NCBI RefSeq assembly: GCF_011758645.1
Contig: NZ_JAAMOZ010000001.1
Span: 2,480,001 to 2,544,000, forward strand
Origin: Brooklawnia cerclae
Lineage (GTDB): Bacteria; Actinomycetota; Actinomycetes; Propionibacteriales; Propionibacteriaceae
Direction: 5' to 3'
Length of the DNA stretch: 64,000 bases
Shown here one piece after another: positions 5,585 to 27,044 of the stretch (positions are counted from its first letter, which is position 1; each line of letters starts with the position of its first letter). The notes under the pieces are model-generated. The model was not told the origin of the DNA, ran no database searches, and saw only the letters and a program-made list of their open reading frames with translations. The translations under genes were made by a program, and so were the position numbers.

Positions 5585-6991
5585 ATGTCCAGCCGCATAG
5601 AGAAGGATTCCATGGGCACCATCGAGGTGCCCTCCGATCACTACTGGGGCGCACAGACTCAGCGCAGCGTGCAGAACTTCGACATCGGCCGTCCGACCTT
5701 CGTCTGGGGCCGTCCGATGATCAAGGCTCTCGGTGTGCTCAAGAAGTCTGCCGCCCAGGCCAATGCCGACCTGGGTGAGCTGCCCCACGACATCGCCGAC
5801 CTCATTGTCCAGGCGGCCGACGAGGTCATCGAGGGCAAGCTCGACGCCGAGTTCCCGCTGGTCGTCTTCCAGACGGGCTCGGGCACCCAGTCGAACATGA
5901 ACAGCAACGAGGTCATCAGCAACCGCGCCATCGAGATCGCTGGAGGCGAGCTCGGGTCGAAGACGCCCGTGCACCCCAACGACCACGTCAACCGCGGCCA
6001 GAGCTCCAACGACACGTTCCCGACGGCCATGCACATCGCCGTGGTCACGCAGATCAACGAGAAGCTGTACCCCGACGTGACCAAGCTGCGCGACACTCTG
6101 GCCGCCAAGGCGGAGGCCTACAAGGACGTCGTGATGGTCGGCCGCACCCACCTGCAGGACGCCACCCCGGTGACCCTCGGCCAGGTCATCAGCGGCTGGG
6201 TCGCCCAGATCGACTTCGCGCTCGAGGGCATCCGGTACGCCGACTCGCGGGCGCGTGAGCTCGCCATCGGCGGCACCGCCGTGGGCACGGGCCTCAACGC
6301 CCACCCGGAGTTCGGCAAGCTGACCGCGAAGAAGATCTCGGAGCAGACCGGCATCGAGTTCGTCCAGGCACCCAACCTCTTCGCGGCCCTGTCGGCCCAC
6401 GACGCGCTGGTGCAGGTGTCGGGCGAACTGCGCGTGCTGGCCGACGCGCTGATGAAGATCGCCAACGACGTGCGCTGGTACGCGTCCGGCCCCCGCAACG
6501 GCATCGGCGAACTGCTCATCCCCGAGAACGAGCCGGGCAGCTCGATCATGCCGGGCAAGGTGAACCCGACCCAGTGCGAGGCCACGACCATGGTGGCCAC
6601 CAAGGTGTTCGGCAACGACGCCACCGTCGGCTTCGCCGGCAGCCAGGGCAACTTCCAGCTCAACGTGTTCAAGCCCGTCATGGCCTGGTGCTGCCTGGAG
6701 TCGATCCAGTTGCTCGGGGACGCCTGCGTGTCGTTCAACGACCACTGCGCCGTCGGCATCGAGCCGAACCCTGTGAAGATCAAGGCCAACCTGGACGCGA
6801 ACCTCATGCAGGTGACCGCCCTCAACCGCCACATCGGCTACGACAAGGCCTCCACGATCGCGAAGAACGCCCACCACAAGGGGCTGACCCTGCGGGAGTC
6901 GGCGCTGGAGACGGGCTTCCTGACCGCCGAGGAGTTCGACAAGTGGGTCGTGCCCGTCGACATGACCCATCCGAGTGCCGCCTCTGAGTAG
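5585..6991 (+). CDS. fumC: Class II fumarate hydratase
   Basis: 468 residues, iron-independent fumarase interconverting fumarate and malate in the TCA and methylmalonyl-CoA (Wood-Werkman) cycles. Signatures visible are [17 protein letters not shown], the [13 protein letters not shown] segment, [15 protein letters not shown] with the active-site histidine, and the fumarase/aspartase superfamily loop [15 protein letters not shown]. The start [22 protein letters not shown] aligns with the usual N-terminus. Length is standard. Monocistronic by layout: leaderless promoter upstream, terminator downstream. Confidence 0.97.
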
Positions 6992-7009
6992 AGCGCCAGT
7001 TTGGAGCTT

Positions 7010-7044
7010 GCGGGCCGTCTGCCATGGGGTGGGCGGCCCGCTTT
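7010..7044 (+). terminator. fumC intrinsic terminator
   Basis: GCGGGCCG (7010-7017) pairs perfectly with CGGCCCGC (7034-7041), followed by TTTG. It lies 18 bases after the fumC stop and isolates fumC from the CRISPR locus downstream. Confidence 0.75.
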
Positions 7045-7191
7045 GTAGTGTCCCGCGGGCGTCGCGACTTGCGCACGGAATTGCAGGACTGGCAGCTGCT
7101 TCGGCAGCGCCCCGCGCGGCACGAGGCAGTAAAGCTCCGACAAGACTTCGTGGGAACATGGCAAGCTGGGAGCACAGGCCGGAATCGGTCG

Positions 7192-7290
7192 CTGCTCCCC
7201 GCAGTGCGGGGATGATCCGTTGGTGGTCAGTGGGTGGGAGTGCAAACGAACCTCACACGGAGAGTGTTCCCCGCTATGCGGGGCGTAATG
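7192..7290 (+). ncRNA. Candidate crRNA-like cas-regulating RNA (CreR/CreA type): two degenerate CRISPR repeats and one spacer
   Basis: Degenerate repeat 1 (7192-7218) matches the array repeat in its first part (TGCTCCCCGC) and last part (GCGGGGATGATCC), but has a 3-base loop AGT instead of GTAG. Degenerate repeat 2 (7264-7290) starts GTGTTCCCCGC, has loop TAT, continues GCGGGG and then diverges (CGTAATG). Both still fold into the Cas6e-type CCCCGC/GCGGGG hairpin. Repeat 1 retains an intact crRNA handle (ATGATCC plus G7219). Between them lies a 44-base spacer-like segment (7220-7263). Orientation is the same as the main array and the cas genes. The segment partly matches 7363-7387, just upstream of the cas3 promoter (separate entry). 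Known CreA/CreR RNAs have this arrangement. The promoter of this RNA was not identified. Confidence 0.7.
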
Positions 7291-7304
7291 GGCCGCATCT
7301 TCAC

Positions 7305-7343
7305 TCCCCTTGGGGGACGCTCCCTCTGTCGGTCGGAGGGCGC
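7305..7343 (+). terminator. Two small hairpins between the crRNA-like element and the cas3 promoter
   Basis: TCCCC/GGGGA (7305-7317, 3-base loop) is followed by GCTCCCTC/GAGGGCGC (7319-7343, one mismatch, 9-base loop). They may end the short upstream RNA or separate it from cas3. There is no clear T-tract (ACTTTAG follows 10 bases later), so termination is only a possibility. Confidence 0.3.
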
Positions 7344-7359
7344 TGTCGAACAACTTTAG

Positions 7360-7395
7360 AACTTGGTTGTGAGGGGGTGAGAGTGGAGGTATGGG
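7360..7395 (+). promoter_or_regulatory. Predicted Cascade/crRNA-like RNA target upstream of the cas3 promoter
   Basis: Bases from 7363 match the spacer-like segment starting at 7220. The identities are 1-5 TTGGT, 7-8 GT, 10-11 AG, 13-17 GGGTG, 19-23 GAGTG, and 25 A. Mismatches are at 6, 9, 12, 18 and 24; similarity ends after 25. The three bases before it are AAC (7360-7362), close to the AAG type I-E PAM. A 32-base protospacer would end at 7394, 16 bases before the -35 hexamer; a complex on the full 44-base segment would reach 7406, next to it. Partial matching would favour binding without cleavage. Both sequences are G/T-rich, which weakens the statistics. Confidence 0.6.
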
Positions 7396-7410
7396 GGTGA
7401 GAGAGGGGGA

Positions 7411-7453
7411 TTGACGGCAACGCTACCGGAGCACTAGCCTCTCTTTCAGGAGG
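7411..7453 (+). promoter_or_regulatory. Promoter and ribosome-binding site of the cas operon
   Basis: TTGACG (7411-7416) and TAGCCT (7435-7440) are separated by 18 bases and fit a primary-sigma promoter. AGGAGG (7448-7453) lies eight bases before the GTG start of cas3 at 7462, so the leader is only about 15 bases. An ATG at 7460 is immediately followed by TGA and cannot be the start. Confidence 0.75.
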
Positions 7454-7461
7454 TATCCGAT

Positions 7462-10323
7462 GTGAAGGACATCACTTGTCGCGAGGCGCCTAAAGTAGAG
7501 AACGCCACTGACCCGTTCTATCTGGTCCCTCCGACAGTTTTCGCAGTTTGGGCCAAGCACGATCGGCAAAGCGGCAGCTACATGCCGTTGCCGCAACACT
7601 GCGCCGATGCAGCTGCTGTAGCCCGCATCCTCTGGGACGAGGGTTTGGCTCCCGCCACACGTGGAATCGTCGAACGGGCCCTCGGCGATTCTGCCGAACT
7701 AGCACAGAAACTAGCGGTGTTCCTTGCTTCTGCGCACGACATCGGAAAAGCATCACCCGCGTTTGCAGGCCAACTGCCGTCACAGCGCGACCGCATGGAA
7801 GCGGCGGGGTATATCTTCACTCCGACCCTCAGCGAGTTGGAACGCAGACGACTACCCCATTCCCTCGTGTCCCACATTCATCTCACGTCATGGCTCAAGA
7901 AGAAGTTCCCTGATGCCCGGCTGCCCATAATCTCGTCGATCGCGATTGTGCTCGGCGGGCACCACGGAGTATTCCCCGCACCGGAAGGGGTGCAGGCGCT
8001 CACAGTAGCAAGCAGAGGTTTCGGAAACAAGCAATGGTATGCGGCGCGGGAATCCCTCCTCGAGAAGGCACAACTCACAGCCCGACTCAGTGACAAGGAA
8101 CTCCACGAAATCGTAAGCACTGGTCTTGACCAGCCTAGCCAACTCGTTCTAACCGGCTTTGTGATCCAGTGCGACTGGATCGCATCCAACGTCGACCTTT
8201 TCCCCTACCAAGGCACCAGCGCGTTCACGGGCCATCACCTGCAGAACTCCTCCGAACGCGCCCTTCGCGCTCTGCACGAGCTCGACCTCCCGCAACCTTG
8301 GCGGCCCAACGCCCCTGACGCCGACAAAGTGTGGGCGGCCCGATTCAATCTGCCGCCGAAAGCTCTCCCCCGACCCATCCAGCGAGCGATGCTCGATGTC
8401 GCGCGCAAGGCAACAACCCCCGGATTCTTCATCCTCGAAGCGCCGACAGGTGAGGGTAAGACCGAGGCTGCGCTGGCCGCAGCTGAGGTCCTTGCCCAAC
8501 GATTCGGTTGCGGTGGGCTGATGATCGCCTTGCCCACTCAGGCCACAAGCGACGCTTTGTTCGCGCGTACCTTGGCTTGGCTGAGGCGAACGGTTCCGCC
8601 CGAGGAGTCCGCGTCGGTCGCGCTCAGCCACGGAAAAGCGGAGTTCAACGAGGACTACACGCACCTTCGCTTCCCCAACACCCGGGATGTATACGACGAC
8701 TCGCTTCCCAGTCAGCCAGCTCTGCGGGCGCATTGGTGGCAGTCAGGCCGGAAAAAGTCGGTACTAGCCGACTTTGTCGTCGGCACGATCGATCAGGTGC
8801 TCTTCGCAGCGCTCGTCTCACGCCACCTGATGCTGAGATACCTAGGCCTCAGCGGCAAGGTAGTGATTCTCGACGAGGTCCATGCTGCAGACGAGTACAT
8901 GCAGATCTACCTCGATCGTGCCCTCGAGTGGCTCGGAGCACTCAATGTGCCGGTGATCGCGTTGTCAGCAACGCTACCGCCCCACCGTCGTGCGGCCATG
9001 CTTAACGCTTACCAGTGCGGCCGCGGTGATGCCCTTGAAACGCGCAACCAAACAGCGTCCGTTGCCGAGACGGCCACCCAATACCCGATCATCACAACCA
9101 CCGACACCGCATCGATCACTCCCGAGCGCTCCAGCCGCTCCATCGCTGCCCGAGTCGAACTCTTTGACGAGGACCCCGCTGGACTTGCCGACCTAGCGAT
9201 TAAGCGCACGACTTCGGGCGGCTGCGTCGCGATCATCCACAACACCGTCGACCGTGCTCAGCAGACCTACCTACGTCTTCGTGAGGCACTAGGCGACGAC
9301 GTGGTGCTGCTTCACTCGCGGTTTATGACGGAAGATCGGCTCGCGCTCGAAACTGCCTTGCGCAAGAAGCTCGGCCCACTCACCACCGGGGAACAACGGC
9401 CCCAACGCCTCGTTGTCGTCGCGACCCAGGTGATCGAGCAATCGCTGGATCTCGATTTTGATCTCATGATTAGCGATCTGGCTCCCATCGATTCGCTAAT
9501 TCAGCGCTTGGGGCGCCTTCACCGGCACGATCGTCCTTCATCCGACCGACCCGCTGGAATGGCTGAGCCGGAACTGATCGTGACGGGCCTAAGCACAGCT
9601 GACTCGGTTCCCACCTTCGTCACCGGCTCTTCTCGGGTATATGGAAATGCCCTCCTGTTTCGCACGCTTGCGGTGCTTGCCAACCGCATCGGGCCTGGCG
9701 GCACGCTGACCAGCCCTGACGATGTGGCGTTACTTGTGCGTGATGCCTACGATCCCGAACTCTCTTGCCCATCCGGGTGGGAGGAATCGTGGCAAGCTGC
9801 CGAACTGGACCGTTCTACCCGGTTGGCCGAACAGCACCAGCGCGCATCCAGCGGATGCGTCCAATCTCCCAGGAAAGGTGCCCGAGCTCTGCTCGGGTGG
9901 TCCGACTCCGCATCGGATGCCTCGGATGACCAAACAGCCAGGCGAGCGGTCCGCGACACCGACGACGCAATCGAGGTCGTGCTCGTCCAGCGTGGCAATG
10001 ACGGGCGCGCAATGACTCTGCCCTGGCTTGATAGGCACGCAAGCGAGTACGTCGATCTTGGTCCCCAAATTGCACCCGATCTTGCCCGGGCCATCGCGCG
10101 GTGCACCCTGCGTCTTCCTGGGTGGGTCTCATCCGGGCGGCTGGGCGACCAGATAATCGAAGAGCTCGAGGACAACTTCTTCAGTACATGGCAGGACTCA
10201 CCGTGGCTGAAGGGCGTCCTCGCCCTCGTTGTCAGCCCTGACCTGACGGCAAAGGTCGCGGGACAGGTTTTCCGATATGACCGACATCTCGGTCTGGTCA
10301 TTGAGAAGGGAGAGAAAGCTTGA
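7462..10323 (+). CDS. cas3: Type I-E CRISPR-associated nuclease-helicase Cas3
   Basis: 953 residues; degrades target DNA processively after Cascade binding. An N-terminal HD nuclease domain carries SAHDIGKASPAF (HD at 92-93), with H46 (PLPQHC) upstream and LGGHHGVF further on. The SF2 helicase domain has EAPTGEGKTE (about 326-335), DEVH (about 471-474), LSATLP (about 502-507), and QSLDLDFD..QRLGRLHRHD (motif VI, about 681). Length is usual for the family. It is the first gene of the operon; its TGA overlaps the TTG start of cse1. The cas genes are visibly less GC-rich and have more mixed third positions than the flanking housekeeping genes, consistent with horizontal acquisition. Confidence 0.97.
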   Translation: MKDITCREAPKVENATDPFYLVPPTVFAVWAKHDRQSGSYMPLPQHCADAAAVARILWDEGLAPATRGIVERALGDSAELAQKLAVFLASAHDIGKASPAFAGQLPSQRDRMEAAGYIFTPTLSELERRRLPHSLVSHIHLTSWLKKKFPDARLPIISSIAIVLGGHHGVFPAPEGVQALTVASRGFGNKQWYAARESLLEKAQLTARLSDKELHEIVSTGLDQPSQLVLTGFVIQCDWIASNVDLFPYQGTSAFTGHHLQNSSERALRALHELDLPQPWRPNAPDADKVWAARFNLPPKALPRPIQRAMLDVARKATTPGFFILEAPTGEGKTEAALAAAEVLAQRFGCGGLMIALPTQATSDALFARTLAWLRRTVPPEESASVALSHGKAEFNEDYTHLRFPNTRDVYDDSLPSQPALRAHWWQSGRKKSVLADFVVGTIDQVLFAALVSRHLMLRYLGLSGKVVILDEVHAADEYMQIYLDRALEWLGALNVPVIALSATLPPHRRAAMLNAYQCGRGDALETRNQTASVAETATQYPIITTTDTASITPERSSRSIAARVELFDEDPAGLADLAIKRTTSGGCVAIIHNTVDRAQQTYLRLREALGDDVVLLHSRFMTEDRLALETALRKKLGPLTTGEQRPQRLVVVATQVIEQSLDLDFDLMISDLAPIDSLIQRLGRLHRHDRPSSDRPAGMAEPELIVTGLSTADSVPTFVTGSSRVYGNALLFRTLAVLANRIGPGGTLTSPDDVALLVRDAYDPELSCPSGWEESWQAAELDRSTRLAEQHQRASSGCVQSPRKGARALLGWSDSASDASDDQTARRAVRDTDDAIEVVLVQRGNDGRAMTLPWLDRHASEYVDLGPQIAPDLARAIARCTLRLPGWVSSGRLGDQIIEELEDNFFSTWQDSPWLKGVLALVVSPDLTAKVAGQVFRYDRHLGLVIEKGEKA

Positions 10324-11936
10324 CTAACCCAGTTTTCAACGCAGTGGACGATCCGTGGATCGTCGTCAGGAACGTTCGGGGCGACACCGAGACCGTGGGT
10401 ATCCGCGATCTTTTTCGCCGCGCCCACGAGTTCAGAGACCTCGCCGGAGAACTGCCCTCACAGGACTTCGCCGTTTTCCGGGTACTGCTCGCTGTGCTCT
10501 ATCGCGCGCTCGATACCGAGCCGTGGGACGAACCGGAGGAGCAGTGGGCAAAGTGGTGGAACGCTGAGACGCTCCCTCTCTCGCCGATCGAGGCATATTT
10601 GGACCATTGGCGTCATCGGTTCGAGCTATTCGACCCGGTACAGCCGTGGTTCCAGGTAGGTGGGCTTGAGTCGGTCAGCGGCGATACACGTCCGGTCGAT
10701 CTCCTGGTGCCCGATTGTCCCGCTGCTGGCGGCTTGTTCTCCATGCGAAGGGGATACCAGTCCCTGTCGCCCGCCGAAGCAACCAGATGGATCGTCCACT
10801 GCCAGGCATACGACAGTTCTGGGATCAAGACAGGCGCAAAGGGTGATCCACGCGTCAGCGGAGGCAAGGGGTACCCCATTGGTACGGGCTGGGCAGGCTG
10901 GTTCGGCGGGCTCACCGTTGTCGGCGACAACCTGCGCGAGACCCTGCTTCTCAACCTTGTGCTCGATCGACCACGCGACGACTCTGACATCCCGATCTGG
11001 GAGGAGCCATCACTCGGAGCGGCACCCCGAACTGCGGTCGTGGTGCGCGGTCCCCTCGCCCTGCTCACCTGGCCGCAGCGGCGCATCAGACTGTTTCCCT
11101 CGGCGGATGGCACTGTCACGTCGATACTCATCTGCAACGGCGACCCAGTTCCCTACCAATGGCTGGACGAATACGAACTGATGAGCGGCTGGCGTTTCAG
11201 TGAACCTCAGACGAAGAACTTCAAGAAAACCGTGTACATGCCGCGAGCGCTCGATCCCTCACAGGCACTGTGGCGTGGATTGACAGCACTACTGCCTACT
11301 ACGGGCTCGCAAGCTGGTAAACCAGACAGGTTCAAGCCGTGCCAAGTCATACGATGGTCATCCAAGCTTGCACTTGCCGAAGCTCTCCCAACCGAGCGCA
11401 GAACGCGCATCAAGGCTGTCGGTATCCAGTACGGCCCGCAGTCCGCTTCCTGGGACGAGGTGTTCAGCGACCGACTGGCCTTCAACGTGCTGCTGGCCAT
11501 CGAAGGCAACAGCGCCGCCAAGGAAACCGTGTACGCAGCTGCTGACCGCTCCAACGACGCGGTGCGCGCCGTCGGTCAACTGGCTGCTAACCTGCAACGC
11601 GCCGCCGGAGGAAGTCCCGAGGCAGCGTCGGAGACGGCTCAAGCCCAAGGCTTCGCACGCATTGACGCCCCATTCCGACGCTGGCTCGAGGACCTCAGCG
11701 CCAGTTCCGACACCGAACAGGGTTTGACGCAGTGGACGCAGACTCTGCGGGAAGTCGTGCTGGAACTCGGTGACCAACTCTTGCACGAGGCAGGCCCGGC
11801 AGCGTGGGTCGGGCGAACAGCCGTCGTCAGCAACACCGAGCGAGTCATAAGCACCGGGCAAGCAGCTGCCTGGTTCCGCAGCGCCGTATCGAAGGTGCTG
11901 CCCCAGCCAGCAGTTCCGAAAGGAGAACCAGCATGA
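10320..11936 (+). CDS. casA: Cascade large subunit Cse1 (CasA/Cas8e)
   Basis: 538 residues. In type I-E Cascade this subunit recognises the PAM and recruits Cas3. The opening NPVFNAVDDPWIVVRNVRGDTETVGIRDLFRRA is diagnostic of Cse1, as are FELFDPVQPWFQV and GWAGWFGGLTVVGDNLRETLLLNLV; the C-terminal third is the helical bundle. The start is TTG at 10320, overlapping the cas3 stop as TTGA; GGGAGAG lies just upstream as a ribosome-binding site. Its stop overlaps the cse2 ATG. Confidence 0.95.
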   Translation: MTNPVFNAVDDPWIVVRNVRGDTETVGIRDLFRRAHEFRDLAGELPSQDFAVFRVLLAVLYRALDTEPWDEPEEQWAKWWNAETLPLSPIEAYLDHWRHRFELFDPVQPWFQVGGLESVSGDTRPVDLLVPDCPAAGGLFSMRRGYQSLSPAEATRWIVHCQAYDSSGIKTGAKGDPRVSGGKGYPIGTGWAGWFGGLTVVGDNLRETLLLNLVLDRPRDDSDIPIWEEPSLGAAPRTAVVVRGPLALLTWPQRRIRLFPSADGTVTSILICNGDPVPYQWLDEYELMSGWRFSEPQTKNFKKTVYMPRALDPSQALWRGLTALLPTTGSQAGKPDRFKPCQVIRWSSKLALAEALPTERRTRIKAVGIQYGPQSASWDEVFSDRLAFNVLLAIEGNSAAKETVYAAADRSNDAVRAVGQLAANLQRAAGGSPEAASETAQAQGFARIDAPFRRWLEDLSASSDTEQGLTQWTQTLREVVLELGDQLLHEAGPAAWVGRTAVVSNTERVISTGQAAAWFRSAVSKVLPQPAVPKGEPA

Positions 11937-12580
11937 CAACAGTCACTTCGCCGATTCCGGATCGCCGACGGCCCGGCGAATCGAGCCAATTGCTCGCAGC
12001 GTACGTTGGGCGGCGTGCGACCCAGCTTCAGTCGCGCTATCTTGCGCAGGATCCGCGTGCCCGCGCCGACCTCGCACGACTGCGGCGCGCGGTTGGCCGC
12101 AGTCCCGGGAGTGATCCGGCGGCCTGGGATGTTATTTTCCGCGATTTTCCGCCCGAGCTGATGGGCCGGAACGATGCTCCCTCGCCGGCTGAGCTTGCCG
12201 TAAATGCAGCACTCTGTCTGTTCGGTGTGCATCTGCAATCCGCTGACAAACCCATGCACGTCCAGGATCAAGGTTTGGGCCGCGCAGTCCGCTTGCTATC
12301 ACGACCCGAGGATACCGAGACGTTCTCGGCTCCGACGATGCGCCGCTTCCACGCTCTCGGCACAGCGACATCGCTGGTCGAGGTATTGCACCACGCTCGC
12401 GGCTTGATCCAGCAGTTTCGAGCGGGTGGCATCGGCCTTGACTACGGGCGTCTCGCTGACGATTTTTACTGGCTTCAACGCCCGGCCTCTGCAGACAACG
12501 TCCGATTGCGTTGGGCGCGTGACCTTTACCGAATCGACCCACAAACCGAAAATAGTCCCGAAAAGGAGATTTCCGAATGA
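11933..12580 (+). CDS. casB: Cascade small subunit Cse2 (CasB)
   Basis: 215 residues, mostly helical. Two copies per Cascade line the target-strand path. Recognisable family features are the C-terminal half (GRAVRLL, RRFHALGTATSLVEVLHHARGLIQQFRAGGIGLDYGRLADDFYWLQRPASADNVRLRWARDLYR). The start is ATG at 11933, overlapping the casA stop (ATGA) and preceded by AAAGGAG; in-frame sequence upstream belongs to casA. Its stop overlaps the cas7e ATG. Confidence 0.93.
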   Translation: MTTVTSPIPDRRRPGESSQLLAAYVGRRATQLQSRYLAQDPRARADLARLRRAVGRSPGSDPAAWDVIFRDFPPELMGRNDAPSPAELAVNAALCLFGVHLQSADKPMHVQDQGLGRAVRLLSRPEDTETFSAPTMRRFHALGTATSLVEVLHHARGLIQQFRAGGIGLDYGRLADDFYWLQRPASADNVRLRWARDLYRIDPQTENSPEKEISE

Positions 12581-13692
12581 CCACCTTCATTGATCTGCAC
12601 ATTCTCCAAACCGTTCCGCCGAGCAACATCAACCGCGATGACACAGGTAGCCCGAAAACTGCCATATACGGCGGAGTCCGCCGCGCTAGGGTATCTAGCC
12701 AAGCATGGAAGCGCGCTACACGCCGAGAGTTCAGCAAGTACCTTGATGAGAGCGAATTGGGCGAACGGACCCTGATCGCCGCCGAACGCATCGCGGAAGT
12801 GATAACCGAGTTGAAGCCAGAGCTACGAGACCGCTCGCTCGAACTCGCCACGAACGTTCTCAAGGCTGTAAAGATCAAGGTCACCATCCCCAAGGTGAAG
12901 GACGGAACCGAATCGGCAGAAAAGGCGAAGACTGGGTACCTGCTGTTCGTTAGCAACCCTCAGGTGCGCGCGTTGGCCGAACTGGCTATCGCCAACCTCG
13001 ATGGTTCCATCTCAGCCAAGGACGTTAAGAAAGCCCTGACAGACGGCGTGTCTATCGACATCGCTCTGTTCGGCCGAATGATCGCTGATGCGCCGGATCT
13101 CAATGTGGATGCCAGCGCTCAGGTTGCTCACGCCATCAGCGTCCATGGTGTTGACAACGAATTTGACTACTTTACTGCCGTTGACGATCATGCCCCCGCC
13201 GATAACGCCGGCGCCGGCATGATTGGAACAGTCGAGTTCAACTCCTCCACGTTGTACCGATACGCCACAGTCAACGCGGACCAACTCGCCAAAGTGCTGG
13301 GGTCACCGAAGGCTGCTGCAGCCGCAGTGGAAGCATTCGTTCGCGCGTTCATCGTCTCGATGCCAACGGGCAAGCAGAATACATTCGCCAACCGGACGCT
13401 GCCGGACCTCGTCGCACTGATCGTCCGCGATGACCAGCCTGTCAACCTCGTGGGTGCATTCGAGCACCCGATCGAGTCTGAGAACCGCGTTGTTGACGCC
13501 ACTCGAGCACTCCTACGCCGGGCTGAGGAGATCGACATCGCATTTTCCGTTAGCCCCGTCTTACGGAAAGCCCTTGCTGTCGGCGAAGCCCGCGAAAGGG
13601 TGACTGAGGCTGGCATCGAGCTTGCAGACCTCGACGGACTGGTCGTCTCTGCCCGAGACACTGTGGCAGGGCTGTCAACGGTGGCGCAATGA
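12577..13692 (+). CDS. casC: Cascade backbone subunit Cas7e (Cse4/CasC)
   Basis: 371 residues, RAMP-fold protein that polymerises along the crRNA (six copies in E. coli) and kinks it every sixth base. The N-terminus FIDLHILQTVPPSNINRDDTGSPKTAIYGGVRRARVSSQAWKRA is the strongest family signature; ALFGRMIADAPDLNVDASAQVAHAISVHGV and FNSSTLYRYATVN are also typical. It is translated through ATGA overlaps with both neighbours. The six-base periodicity it imposes underlies the interpretation of the crRNA-like element upstream of cas3. Confidence 0.96.
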   Translation: MTTFIDLHILQTVPPSNINRDDTGSPKTAIYGGVRRARVSSQAWKRATRREFSKYLDESELGERTLIAAERIAEVITELKPELRDRSLELATNVLKAVKIKVTIPKVKDGTESAEKAKTGYLLFVSNPQVRALAELAIANLDGSISAKDVKKALTDGVSIDIALFGRMIADAPDLNVDASAQVAHAISVHGVDNEFDYFTAVDDHAPADNAGAGMIGTVEFNSSTLYRYATVNADQLAKVLGSPKAAAAAVEAFVRAFIVSMPTGKQNTFANRTLPDLVALIVRDDQPVNLVGAFEHPIESENRVVDATRALLRRAEEIDIAFSVSPVLRKALAVGEARERVTEAGIELADLDGLVVSARDTVAGLSTVAQ

Positions 13693-14387
13693 GCACGCTG
13701 CTCTTGAGACTCGCGGGCCCGTTACAGTCGTGGGGCGATTCCAGCCGGTTCAACCACCGGCGCACACGCGAGGAGCCTACGAAGAGTGGCGTGCTGGGAC
13801 TGTTGGCCGCAGCGGATGGACGACGGCGTACCGATCCGATTGAAGACCTGCTGGCTTTGAGATTCGGCGTGAGGACCGATCAACAGGGAACTTTGATCCG
13901 TGATTTCCAGACCGAAATTGATTGGAGATCGGGCCGCTCCATGCCGCTGACTCACCGGCACTACTTGGCAGATGCAGCTTTCCTCGCGGCACTAGAAGGT
14001 GATTCGAGTTTGATCGAAGCACTGAAGGATACGTTGACGCACCCAGCGTTCCCGCTCTACCTGGGACGCCGTGCCTGTCCTCCGGATGGGAAATTGGTCA
14101 TCGGCGTCCGCGAGACTTCGTTCCTTGATGCGTTGGTTTCGGAGCCTTGGCTAGCCTCGCCATGGTACAGGCGTAAACAGTCCCGAATAGGAGTGCGGCT
14201 ACCCATTTGTCGTGACGCGCTTCCGGGCGATCCTGTGCACGACACAGTCCATGATGTCCCGGTCTCGTTCGATCCACGAAACCGCGACTACGGCTGGCGA
14301 GATGTCGTCCACGAGTACACGCCGCCGATCGACAATCCGGTTGGCAAAGCGCCCCAACATGATCCGATTGCCCTGCTTGAGGAGTGA
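13689..14387 (+). CDS. casD: Cascade subunit Cas5e (CasD)
   Basis: 232 residues, RAMP protein that caps the crRNA 5' handle. LLLRLAGPLQSWGDSSRFNHRRTREEPTKSGVLGLLAAA is the classic Cas5e N-terminus. GRRACPPDG and the C-terminal region (VSFDPRNRDYGWRDVVHEYTPP) also fit. ATGA overlap with cas7e; the cas6e ATG follows its stop by two bases. Confidence 0.95.
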   Translation: MSTLLLRLAGPLQSWGDSSRFNHRRTREEPTKSGVLGLLAAADGRRRTDPIEDLLALRFGVRTDQQGTLIRDFQTEIDWRSGRSMPLTHRHYLADAAFLAALEGDSSLIEALKDTLTHPAFPLYLGRRACPPDGKLVIGVRETSFLDALVSEPWLASPWYRRKQSRIGVRLPICRDALPGDPVHDTVHDVPVSFDPRNRDYGWRDVVHEYTPPIDNPVGKAPQHDPIALLEE

Positions 14388-14389
14388 GC

Positions 14390-15049
14390 ATGTATCTATC
14401 GCGCATCGACCTGAACCCTATGCGCCGCCAGGCACGCTGGTTATTGGGCAATCCCCAGGCTATGCACGCCACGGTCATGGGCGTATGTACCCGCGAAGAG
14501 CCCTCTCCGAGCAGCGGAGGGCGCATTCTTTGGCGAGTTGACGAGGACGGCGACAACGTTTGTCTCTACATCGTTAGTCCCCAGCGACCCGATCTCGCCG
14601 ATCTCAGTGAAACCATCGGCTGGGATGGTGCCACGGCTTCGGTCGCAGACTATGACCCGTTCTTGGAACGCCTTGAGATCGGGCGGGCCTATGCATTCAG
14701 GTTGACTGCCAACCCCACGCACGTGGTCACTATGGATGACGGGCGAAAGCGTCGGCTTGGTCACGTCACGGTTGAATATCAGAGATCCTGGCTACTTGAG
14801 CATGCAAACCGGATGGGACTCCAGATACCCACCACCGAGACCGGCCACCCGGATGTCGTCGTCCATGATCGGCAAGTCCGAACCTTCCAGCGACAGCATC
14901 GTCCGGTGACCCTTACGATCGCCACCTTCGATGGACGTGGCGTCGTGGCCAACGTCGAGGCTCTCTGCAAAACACTTGTGGACGGGATCGGGCCAGCTAA
15001 AGCCTATGGCTGCGGACTTCTCACCCTGGCTTCACCTGCACCACGATGA
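14390..15049 (+). CDS. casE: CRISPR repeat endoribonuclease Cas6e (CasE/Cse3)
   Basis: 219 residues; cuts pre-crRNA at the base of the repeat hairpin. MYLSRIDLNPMRR is the typical start. NPQAMHATVM carries the histidine equivalent to the catalytic His of known Cas6e proteins. The glycine-rich C-terminal segment GIGPAKAYGCGLLTL binds the repeat. I chose ATG 14390, five bases after GAGGAG, over GTG 14384, which overlaps the casD stop but has no spacing to a ribosome-binding site. The repeats of the array and both degenerate repeats upstream of cas3 keep the hairpin this enzyme would need. Confidence 0.95.
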   Translation: MYLSRIDLNPMRRQARWLLGNPQAMHATVMGVCTREEPSPSSGGRILWRVDEDGDNVCLYIVSPQRPDLADLSETIGWDGATASVADYDPFLERLEIGRAYAFRLTANPTHVVTMDDGRKRRLGHVTVEYQRSWLLEHANRMGLQIPTTETGHPDVVVHDRQVRTFQRQHRPVTLTIATFDGRGVVANVEALCKTLVDGIGPAKAYGCGLLTLASPAPR

Positions 15050-16062
15050 CAAAGCCAATTCCAGGGGTCCGGCCCAGCAGGGTACGGGAGCTTACCCGCG
15101 CGGAAGACAGGTTGTCATTCCTCTATCTCGAGCACTGCGTCGTCGGCCGTGATTCGAATGCAGTCACCGCGACCGACGAACGGGGCATCGTACACATCCC
15201 GTCGGCTTCATTGGGAGTGCTGCTGCTCGGACCTGGAACCAATCTCACACATCAAGCCATGGTGCTACTCGCCGACAGCGGGGCTGCCGTGGTCTGGGTC
15301 GGTGAGCATGGCGTGCGTTGCTACGCATCTGGACGATCGCTCGCCCGATCATCCAGGCTCGTGGAGGCCCAAGCGAAACTCGTATCGAACAGGCAGACGC
15401 GCCTGGCCGTGGCCCGAGCGATGTACGACATGAGATTTGAAAGTGACGACGACACAAGCAGCCTAACGATGCAGCAACTCCGCGGCCGTGAGGGAGCCAG
15501 AGTGCGTGCCATCTATCGTGACGCCTCACGCGAGCACAGCGTCCAGTGGTCGGGACGTGAATACAGCCCGACAGACTTTGCTGCGAGTGACACGATCAAT
15601 CAGGCGCTATCAGCAGCACACGCGTGCCTGTACGGCGTTGTGCACGCTGTCATCGTCGCTCTTGGTTGCTCGCCTGGACTCGGCTTCGTGCATACGGGCC
15701 ACGAACTGAGCTTTGTCTACGACATCGCCGACCTCTACAAGGCGGAAATCACTATCCCCATTGCTTTCAGATGCGTCGGAGAGTTCGAGGGAGCATGGAG
15801 TAGCGCCGATCCGTCTGCTCCGCCAGATGACCCAATCGACGATCTCGCGTCGTACACACGTCGCCGAGTCCGCGATGCCATAAGCGATGGACATATTCTG
15901 ACCCGGTGTGCGCATGACATCCGGCGACTACTGCTGCCTGACGAACCGACAACGGGTGAAGAGAAAGACGCCGTCGTCTTGACCCTTTGGGACGACAAAG
16001 TCGGTCGGGTAGCCGCAGGCGCCAACTACTCGCCCGATGATCTCGATGAGGTGGACTGGTGA
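15046..16062 (+). CDS. cas1: CRISPR integrase Cas1 (type I-E)
   Basis: 338 residues. With Cas2 it integrates new spacers at the leader end. Metal-binding residues are visible: E149 in LRGREGARVRAIYR, H216 in GFVHTGHELSF, and D229 (with D226) in VYDIADLYK. The N-terminal beta domain reads RLSFLYLEHCVVGRDSNAV. The C-terminus is about 30 residues longer than in E. coli and acidic. ATGA overlap with casE and GTGA overlap with cas2. All catalytic residues are present, so adaptation should be functional, in agreement with the very long array. Confidence 0.97.
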   Translation: MTKPIPGVRPSRVRELTRAEDRLSFLYLEHCVVGRDSNAVTATDERGIVHIPSASLGVLLLGPGTNLTHQAMVLLADSGAAVVWVGEHGVRCYASGRSLARSSRLVEAQAKLVSNRQTRLAVARAMYDMRFESDDDTSSLTMQQLRGREGARVRAIYRDASREHSVQWSGREYSPTDFAASDTINQALSAAHACLYGVVHAVIVALGCSPGLGFVHTGHELSFVYDIADLYKAEITIPIAFRCVGEFEGAWSSADPSAPPDDPIDDLASYTRRRVRDAISDGHILTRCAHDIRRLLLPDEPTTGEEKDAVVLTLWDDKVGRVAAGANYSPDDLDEVDW

Positions 16063-16403
16063 CAGTAATCGTGCTCACAGCCTGCCCAGTCGGGTTACGG
16101 GGCCAACTCACGCGCTGGCTGCTTGAGATCAGCCCCGGCGTATTCGTCGGGCACATCAGCAAGCGAGTCCGTGAGGCCCTCTGGGAACAGATAGGTGAGC
16201 TTGTCAAGGACGGAAAGGCTATTATGGTGAGTTCTTCGTCGTCTGAACAGCGGCTGGAGTTTCGAGTACATCGAAACGAATGGGAGCCCGTTGATATGGA
16301 CGGCATCACGCTTATTCGCCGCAACAGCACGAGCGCAGTCACGTCGCACCGTGTGCGCGCGAACTGGAGTACCGCCAGTCGAATGCGGCGACGACGAACA
16401 TGA
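16059..16403 (+). CDS. cas2: CRISPR adaptation protein Cas2 (type I-E)
   Basis: 114 residues, structural partner of Cas1. VIVLTACPVGLRGQLTRWLLEISPGVFVGHISKRVREALWEQI is typical of the I-E Cas2 (CasE-neighbour type, not the I-A/I-B type). The C-terminal tail after about residue 90 is basic and serine-rich. GTG start overlaps the cas1 stop. The gene ends 57 bases before the first repeat. Confidence 0.94.
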   Translation: MTVIVLTACPVGLRGQLTRWLLEISPGVFVGHISKRVREALWEQIGELVKDGKAIMVSSSSSEQRLEFRVHRNEWEPVDMDGITLIRRNSTSAVTSHRVRANWSTASRMRRRRT

Positions 16404-16460: not shown

Positions 16461-26777
<10,317 letters not shown>

Positions 26778-27044
26778 GGCCTCCCATCCCCAGCCGCTGC
26801 CAGAACAGTTCGGCTTGTCGCAACGTCGTAGACCGCCACAGCGGCTCCCTCCGGCCGGGGACCCGGGCCGGATCCCGCTTGACCGCGCGGCGGTTGCCCA
26901 CGGCCGGGTCTTCCCTGGAGGGCACCGGAGCGGGTCCGGTTGCCGAGCGGTCAACTCCAGAGGGTTGACGACCGCTTCTCTTGACCTGCCGACGATCCTC
27001 CCAGACGCCTACGACACAACACGATGCCGGACTTGACCGCCCGG
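26778..27044. other. Array trailer region, no gene recognised
   Basis: 267 bases between the last repeat and the stop of the aminotransferase-like gene. Short open frames exist on both strands, but none shows family features. An imperfect inverted repeat (GCGGTCAAC / GTTGACGACCGC, about 26949-26977) could terminate transcription from either side. Confidence 0.5.

Follow-up and report, generated by a model that had tools for sequence, protein, structure and literature searches.

CreRs, the cas-regulating RNAs of CRISPR (clustered regularly interspaced short palindromic repeats) systems, were reportedly described by Liu et al. in 2023 for types I-B, I-E and V-A. CreRs of these three types that are partially complementary to a promoter are already published (PMC13131331). 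They resemble CRISPR RNAs (crRNAs), are partly complementary to a cas promoter and are predicted to make the cognate effector repress its own operon (PMC13131331, PMC12737573). In the type I-B CreTA module of Haloarcula hispanica, CreA is likewise made of one or two ectopic repeats with an 11-bp seed, and turns Cascade into a repressor without interference (PMC10989794). The Racrs (solitary-repeat RNA anti-CRISPRs) are also repeat-like RNAs produced outside arrays, but they are viral (PMC10651486). Here, we analyzed a 64,000-nucleotide stretch of Brooklawnia cerclae (assembly GCF_011758645.1, contig NZ_JAAMOZ010000001.1, positions 2,480,001 to 2,544,000 of the forward strand), hereafter the window, where a two-repeat mini-CRISPR (7192-7290; all window features are on the plus strand unless otherwise stated) lies upstream of a type I-E operon. 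We propose that this element is, most probably, a type I-E CreR that would guide Cascade to its own cas3 promoter and repress it without cutting.

Several findings place the element very probably in the known CreR kind, whose design has already been described, and nothing that we found excludes its membership. First, it is encoded by a cognate degenerate mini-CRISPR beside the cas operon. Second, its guide is partially complementary to the cas promoter region (promoter boxes identified by eye), beside a valid protospacer-adjacent motif (PAM). Third, the pairing is conserved in relatives while the sequences differ. Unlike CreA, which targets a toxin promoter, it has a target that precedes cas3, and unlike the Racrs it stands before its own cas operon and has a target that it matches.

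As the initial annotation had indicated, two degenerate type I-E repeats with 3-base loops surround a 44-base spacer. The first repeat (R1, 7192-7218) keeps an intact Cas6-type stem, CCCCGC/GCGGGG (7197-7202/7206-7211), closed by an AGT loop, and is followed by the 8-nt 5' handle ATGATCCG of the expected mature guide (7212-7219), the cut site being placed by analogy with type I-E crRNA processing. The spacer of the CreR-like RNA (7220-7263) is 44 nt long (32+12). The second repeat (R2, 7264-7290) has the same intact stem (7269-7274/7278-7283) with a TAT loop, and a decayed handle that agrees with the R1 handle at 3/7 bases. From type I-E processing, the mature RNA is expected to span 7212-7283. 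This architecture departs from that of an ordinary array, with its canonical repeats and 32-33-nt spacers: the repeats are degenerate, and the spacer is 44 nt long as compared with the period of 61 in the main array.

The first 25 bases of the spacer are identical to positions 7363-7387 at 20/25 positions, with mismatches at 6, 9, 12, 18 and 24, exactly as initially annotated; the pairing segments are 1-5, 7-11 (except 9), 13-17 and 19-23. The PAM-distal remainder of the 44-nt protospacer (7388-7406) matches at 4/19 bases only, which makes 24/44 over the full spacer. The shuffled-sequence test that the initial annotation had suggested was performed with 5000 dinucleotide shuffles of 7291-7461. 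Neither the 20/25 match, with or without a required PAM, nor the 20/21 match of the informative bases, nor a 14/18 match with an AA PAM was reached in any shuffle (0/5000 each), while a 14/18 match without PAM occurred in 15/5000. The annotation had cautioned that both stretches are G/T-rich, and this composition would favour a chance similarity. The caution holds for short matches (9/11 is reached in 189/5000 shuffles without PAM and in 2/5000 with an AA PAM) and not for the 20/25 match; moreover, matched pairs occur in relatives of very different composition, such as the AT-rich locus L004. A coincidence of two G/T-rich stretches has therefore a practically negligible probability, and the guide-target match of the window is not due to chance.

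The triplet in front of the target, AAC (7360-7362), had been called a near-PAM. Base 29 of a type I-E array repeat derives from the PAM, and its counts across 165 repeats of the array are C 65, G 57, T 38 and A 5. Since, in addition, AAC is the commonest PAM among the related pairs described below (19/28, in a scan that itself demanded AA), we regard it as a genuine PAM. When the 3.79-Mb genome was searched for the degenerate seed pattern with at most one mismatch, a single site was found, that of cas3; as the reversed control also matched once, this search shows only the absence of an equally good second site. The target region also contains an imperfect 20-base tandem duplication (7364-7403). 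We rejected the tandem copy (7383) as a second target, since by eye its PAM is AGA and its positions 1 and 5 are mismatched.

In relatives, guide and target covary, and their pairing is kept though both sequences change. In L002 and L003, from the same genus (Cas3 57% identical), the same architecture holds the spacer TTGTTACTCGGAGCAGG and the target TTGTTTCTGGGAGCAGG with an AAT PAM. In the AT-rich L004 (Cas3 52%), the guide ACTCGATATTTCGAT faces the target ACTCGATATTTAGAT, also with AAT, and in L011 (Cas3 40%) the guide GTTTTGTTAGT faces GTTTTATTAGT with AAG; covarying pairs are also present in L010 and others. The initial annotation had stated that its reading would fall if related strains had no conserved pairing, and the opposite was found.

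We surveyed the regions upstream of cas3 systematically. The first set comprised 109 regions retrieved through Cas3 searches of overlapping sets of relatives (57 genomes), family (198), order (391) and class (394), leaving out weak and some partial Cas3 matches; it included L024-L026, three distant lactobacilli that were the sole yield of a Cas3 contig scan. The twin locus L003 was dropped and 108 regions were scanned for a handle, one base and an 18-base spacer with a target on either strand no more than 350 bases away, the 18 positions being scored equally with a threshold of 13/18. Repeat-like and N-containing pairs were filtered out; this filter was devised after a first unrestricted run, because the PAM-free scan gave many array and tandem-repeat matches. 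With an AA PAM (the strict scan), 22 matches of at least 13/18 were obtained among 9,901 pairs, in 21 loci, none of them in the three lactobacilli. Non-AA triplets gave 95 matches among 374,910 pairs, 34 of which came from the repeat-rich L048, L055 and L107. Re-pairing the guides with the regions of other genomes (30 times) yielded a mean of 1.5 and a maximum of 4 matches, versus 22 within the same genomes, and a flat mismatch profile. In the family of the window, 22/43 regions carry the element, i.e., 16 strict loci, the twin L003 and five loci outside the strict scan (L011, L031, L034 and L039, below the threshold, and L048, which scored 15 and was removed by the repeat filter).

A second set of 54 new regions was drawn from part of the Cas3 matches in two other families (250 and 150 genomes), with hypotheses fixed beforehand, though after the set-1 matches in these families were known. 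It gave 9 matches in 8 loci, of which L167, an array spacer as judged by eye, was set aside. The seven remaining loci are mismatched at position 6 in 5 cases, at 12 in 4 and at 18 in 6, as compared with 10/105 cells elsewhere. Together with the 21 loci of set 1, they make up 28 strict pairs.

In these 28 pairs, the mismatches at positions 1 to 20 number 0, 2, 2, 0, 0, 21, 0, 1, 7, 5, 1, 20, 1, 4, 7, 10, 7, 21, 17 and 20. Positions 6, 12 and 18 are mismatched in 62/84 cells and matched in 22/84, which corresponds to the random quarter (p 0.80), while the remaining positions hold 47 mismatches in 420 cells; 6/12/18 ranks top of the 816 position triples. The Fisher p value (6e-31) is descriptive, because some rows are related and rows were selected by score. 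Other actinobacterial families show the every-sixth-base pattern as well. We take it to be the footprint of a Cascade that ignores each sixth base, in keeping with the finding that Cascade flips out, or leaves unread, every sixth base (PMC5904413, PMC12871591). The E. coli binding sites differ from our 28 pairs in that their position 6 is matched above chance, at 45% (PMC5904413). In the 20-22 and 32-34 nt length classes presented below, the match rate falls to about 0.3 (background) after position 18, while in two long guides, those of the window and L010, pairing extends through 19-23 (0.9, n=2).

These data also bear on whether the element could be the inert remnant of an ordinary array, i.e., two decayed repeats around a spacer that had been acquired from the cas promoter (an autoimmune scar). 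Self-derived spacers do occur, as is generally known, and both the degenerate repeats and the imperfect match would suit such a scar. Decay, however, would scatter the mismatches, which in the 28 pairs are concentrated at 6, 12 and 18; spacers of 20-22 and 44 nt are unlike the usual length in the array; and the same arrangement is found in front of cas3 in members of several genera and families, where the sequences have changed and yet match. A scar is therefore very unlikely. The reading as a CreR is further consistent with the repeats of 34 candidates (the 28 strict pairs plus L011, L031, L034, L039, L048 and L049). A stem of at least 5 pairs flush with the handle is retained in R1 in 26/34, often with changed arms that still pair (e.g., CTCTGC/GCAGAG), and in 30/34 the R2 handle, which lies outside the mature guide, shares no more than 5/7 bases with that of R1. 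The R1 handle and the R2 stem were search criteria and are thus uninformative by themselves; retention of the R1 stem and decay of the R2 handle are what a guide selected for processing and loading would show.

The spacer lengths of the same 34 candidates were assigned by an automatic rule, which is possibly off by one. It returned 33 lengths: 20 (5 loci), 21 (11), 22 (2), 32 (10), 33 (2), 34 (1), 38 (1) and 44 (1, the window, whose guide is the longest natural case found in the survey); the rule failed for L138, which has 20 by eye. The length classes were first noticed on 27 set-1 candidates. Of the seven set-2 loci, six were assigned by the rule and L138 by eye, and each agreed with the classes expected from set 1. 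Modulo 6, all 33 lengths leave a remainder of 2-4. A period of 11-12 describes them no less well than 6, if not better; only the 38-nt spacer favours a step of 6 over 12, and related loci share lengths. By eye, we saw no tie between spacer length and distance to the -35 box.

Kuznedelov (2016) and Luo (2016) reportedly studied E. coli Cascades of altered stoichiometry with shortened or extended spacers, and in such work on laboratory constructs 6 nt is said to amount to one Cas7, and 12 nt to two Cas7 and one Cas11. Our natural length classes are possibly fitted, as it were, to whole Cas7/Cas11 modules. They resemble the altered E. coli complexes, laboratory constructs that can be assembled on spacers differing by 6 or 12 nt from the usual length (PMC7296934). 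Type I-E complexes shortened by 6 or 12 nt nevertheless allow Cas3 to cut, at a reduced rate (PMC7296934), so that shortness alone would not make a guide harmless. We tentatively suggest, at slightly less than an even chance, that actinobacterial type I-E CreR guides stepped by about 6 or 12 nt serve dedicated regulatory Cascades with a number of Cas7 other than six (approximately 4, 7 or 8, with Cas11 changing per 12 nt), and that their pairing code consists of 5-base blocks, three to four in number, between which the sixth bases are free. Neither such length classes nor the sixth-base pattern in CreR pairs was found in the literature searched, the primary CreR papers lying outside that search; the length classes are possibly new, and we claim no priority.

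The target begins 48 bases upstream of a putative -35 box, and the 44-base protospacer ends 4 bases before it. By eye, the putative cas3 promoter consists of TTGACG (7411-7416), an 18-nt spacing and a weak -10-like TAGCCT (7435-7440), and precedes a Shine-Dalgarno-like AGGAGG (7448-7453); L002 has TTGACA-17-TACCTT at the corresponding place. The distance from target to cas3 start is about 70-100 bases. This layout is relevant to a CreTA-like addiction module, in which the guide would repress a toxin gene with its promoter at 7363, any effect on cas3 being secondary. CreA indeed has the same design, in type I-B and with an 11-bp seed (PMC10989794). Nevertheless, only about 70 bases separate the target from the cas3 start, and they hold a single promoter-like pair (by eye). 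Furthermore, in 27/28 pairs no more than about 570 bases lie between the target start and the Cas3 match, L035 being the exception (no dedicated toxin search was made, here or in relatives). Such a module is highly improbable at this locus.

Other layouts were noticed in the survey. In L035, the guide and target (about 254-450) are followed by two open reading frames (558-899 and 701-1417) that look transposase-like by eye (no search). These precede cas3 (1474) and apparently part the promoter from the operon. In family f20, 8/9 strict loci of both sets (best target each) have a minus-strand target that lies upstream of the guide by 89-112 bases; this variant layout of the same design is seen in L053, L057, L062, L132, L138, L157, L163 and L175. 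One guide, that of L053, matches two sites flanked by AAC, at 14/18 and 13/18, with a distance of 45 bases between them.

We propose that the CreR operates as follows. Cas6e would cut out the RNA (expected 7212-7283), which would be loaded into the cell's own Cascade and direct it to the AAC-flanked site upstream of the putative -35 box, where it would hinder transcription of the cas3 operon. The four 5-base segments, with their internal mismatch at 9 and little PAM-distal pairing, would allow binding without the full R-loop needed for Cas3 cutting; as pairing stops at 25, proper recruitment of Cas3 is not expected. Repression would fall once Cascade is drawn away by array crRNAs or anti-CRISPR proteins, so that the operon would set its own dose. 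Such relief by competing crRNAs or anti-CRISPRs is the published CreR model (PMC12737573). The initial annotation had already pointed to a CreR/CreA-type RNA, a reading that covariation in relatives and the recurrent sixth-base pattern now support. The element, match, PAM, conservation by covariation and sixth-base rule are observed directly in the sequences; transcription, processing, loading, promoter position, repression and its relief by competition are steps that we infer from them.

A guided Cascade might, instead of repressing, prime spacer acquisition or help to recruit Cas1-Cas2. Partially mismatched targets do prime in E. coli, including those with mismatches across 25-32 (PMC5904413), but priming on the cell's own chromosome should be harmful. 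Moreover, the two main length classes drop to background after position 17-18, below the >18 bp reported for interference and priming in E. coli (PMC5904413). We consider this role extremely improbable for the element.

Several points nevertheless weigh against repression of cas3 by a CreR. First, concerning the promoter, the TTGACG claimed as a -35 box in the initial annotation is present as a string, but a consensus scanner called no sigma-70 promoter in 6985-7500, and the cas3 promoter is weak by consensus. Besides, a TTGAC, TTGTC or TTGCC string follows the target start by no more than 140 bases in 9/19 strict pairs on the plus strand, and TTGAC is present close to the target in 1/9 on the minus strand. 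Second, the claim that the mismatches fall on each sixth base holds for 6, 12, 18 and 24, and not for 9, which is a true mismatch inside the seed. Third, the pairing of the window ends at 25/44 and yet counts about 20 bases, to be compared with the >18 bp requirement of E. coli, so that some priming or cutting may occur. Fourth, off-target binding of Cascade in E. coli had no effect on transcription, and 6 PAM-distal mismatches are stated to be enough to lower repression there (PMC5904413). Fifth, 21/43 regions of the window's family lack such an element (four of the 43 are short contig ends). Sixth, set 2 is weaker than set 1: the enrichment for AA is weak (10.1 per 10,000 pairs versus 7.0 for CC, many of the 22 CC matches being repeated array spacers), and re-pairing gave a mean of 1.1 and a maximum of 6 matches versus 9 within the same genomes. 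Finally, folding of 7185-7350 alone favours R1-R2 mutual pairing over two hairpins, with a non-discriminating z of -2.0.

Regarding the surroundings, a terminator-like site (7010-7041), made of a 14-pair stem followed by TTTGTAGTGT, lies behind fumC, so that a separate promoter for the mini-CRISPR is probable at about 7046-7190; the promoter scanner found none in that interval. The type I-E operon is complete (7462-16403) and reads cas3 (7462-10323; TIGR01587, TIGR01596), its first gene, cse1/casA (10320-11936; TIGR02547), cse2/cas11 (11804-12580 as the listed open reading frame, the true start being probably further in; TIGR02548), cas7e (12577-13692; TIGR01869), cas5e (13689-14387; TIGR01868), cas6e (14384-15049; TIGR01907), cas1e (15046-16062; TIGR03638) and cas2e (16059-16403; TIGR01873). 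It is followed by the main CRISPR array (16461-26777), the presumed source of competing crRNAs, with 166 exact copies of the repeat GTGCTCCCCGCGTAGGCGGGGATGATCC at a period of mostly 61. This array is very large, and its few irregular spacings (45, 56, 62 and 122) suggest variant repeats or odd spacers. Directly behind it, on the minus strand, is a SAM-IV riboswitch (26870-26986), the sole Rfam match.

Altogether, the window contains a candidate type I-E CreR, strongly supported by comparison with relatives, whose design is found in about half of the cas3 upstream regions examined in one actinobacterial family, and also in other families. Because their sequences vary so much, the 28 pairs can be used as a natural mutagenesis, in which positions 1-5, 7-11 and 13-17 appear constrained and positions 6, 12 and 18 free. 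If our tentative proposal on the stepped guides is true, the base flipping of Cascade would be read out of evolution through a pairing code of three to four 5-base blocks, and the length classes would predict natural Cascades of non-standard size devoted to regulation.
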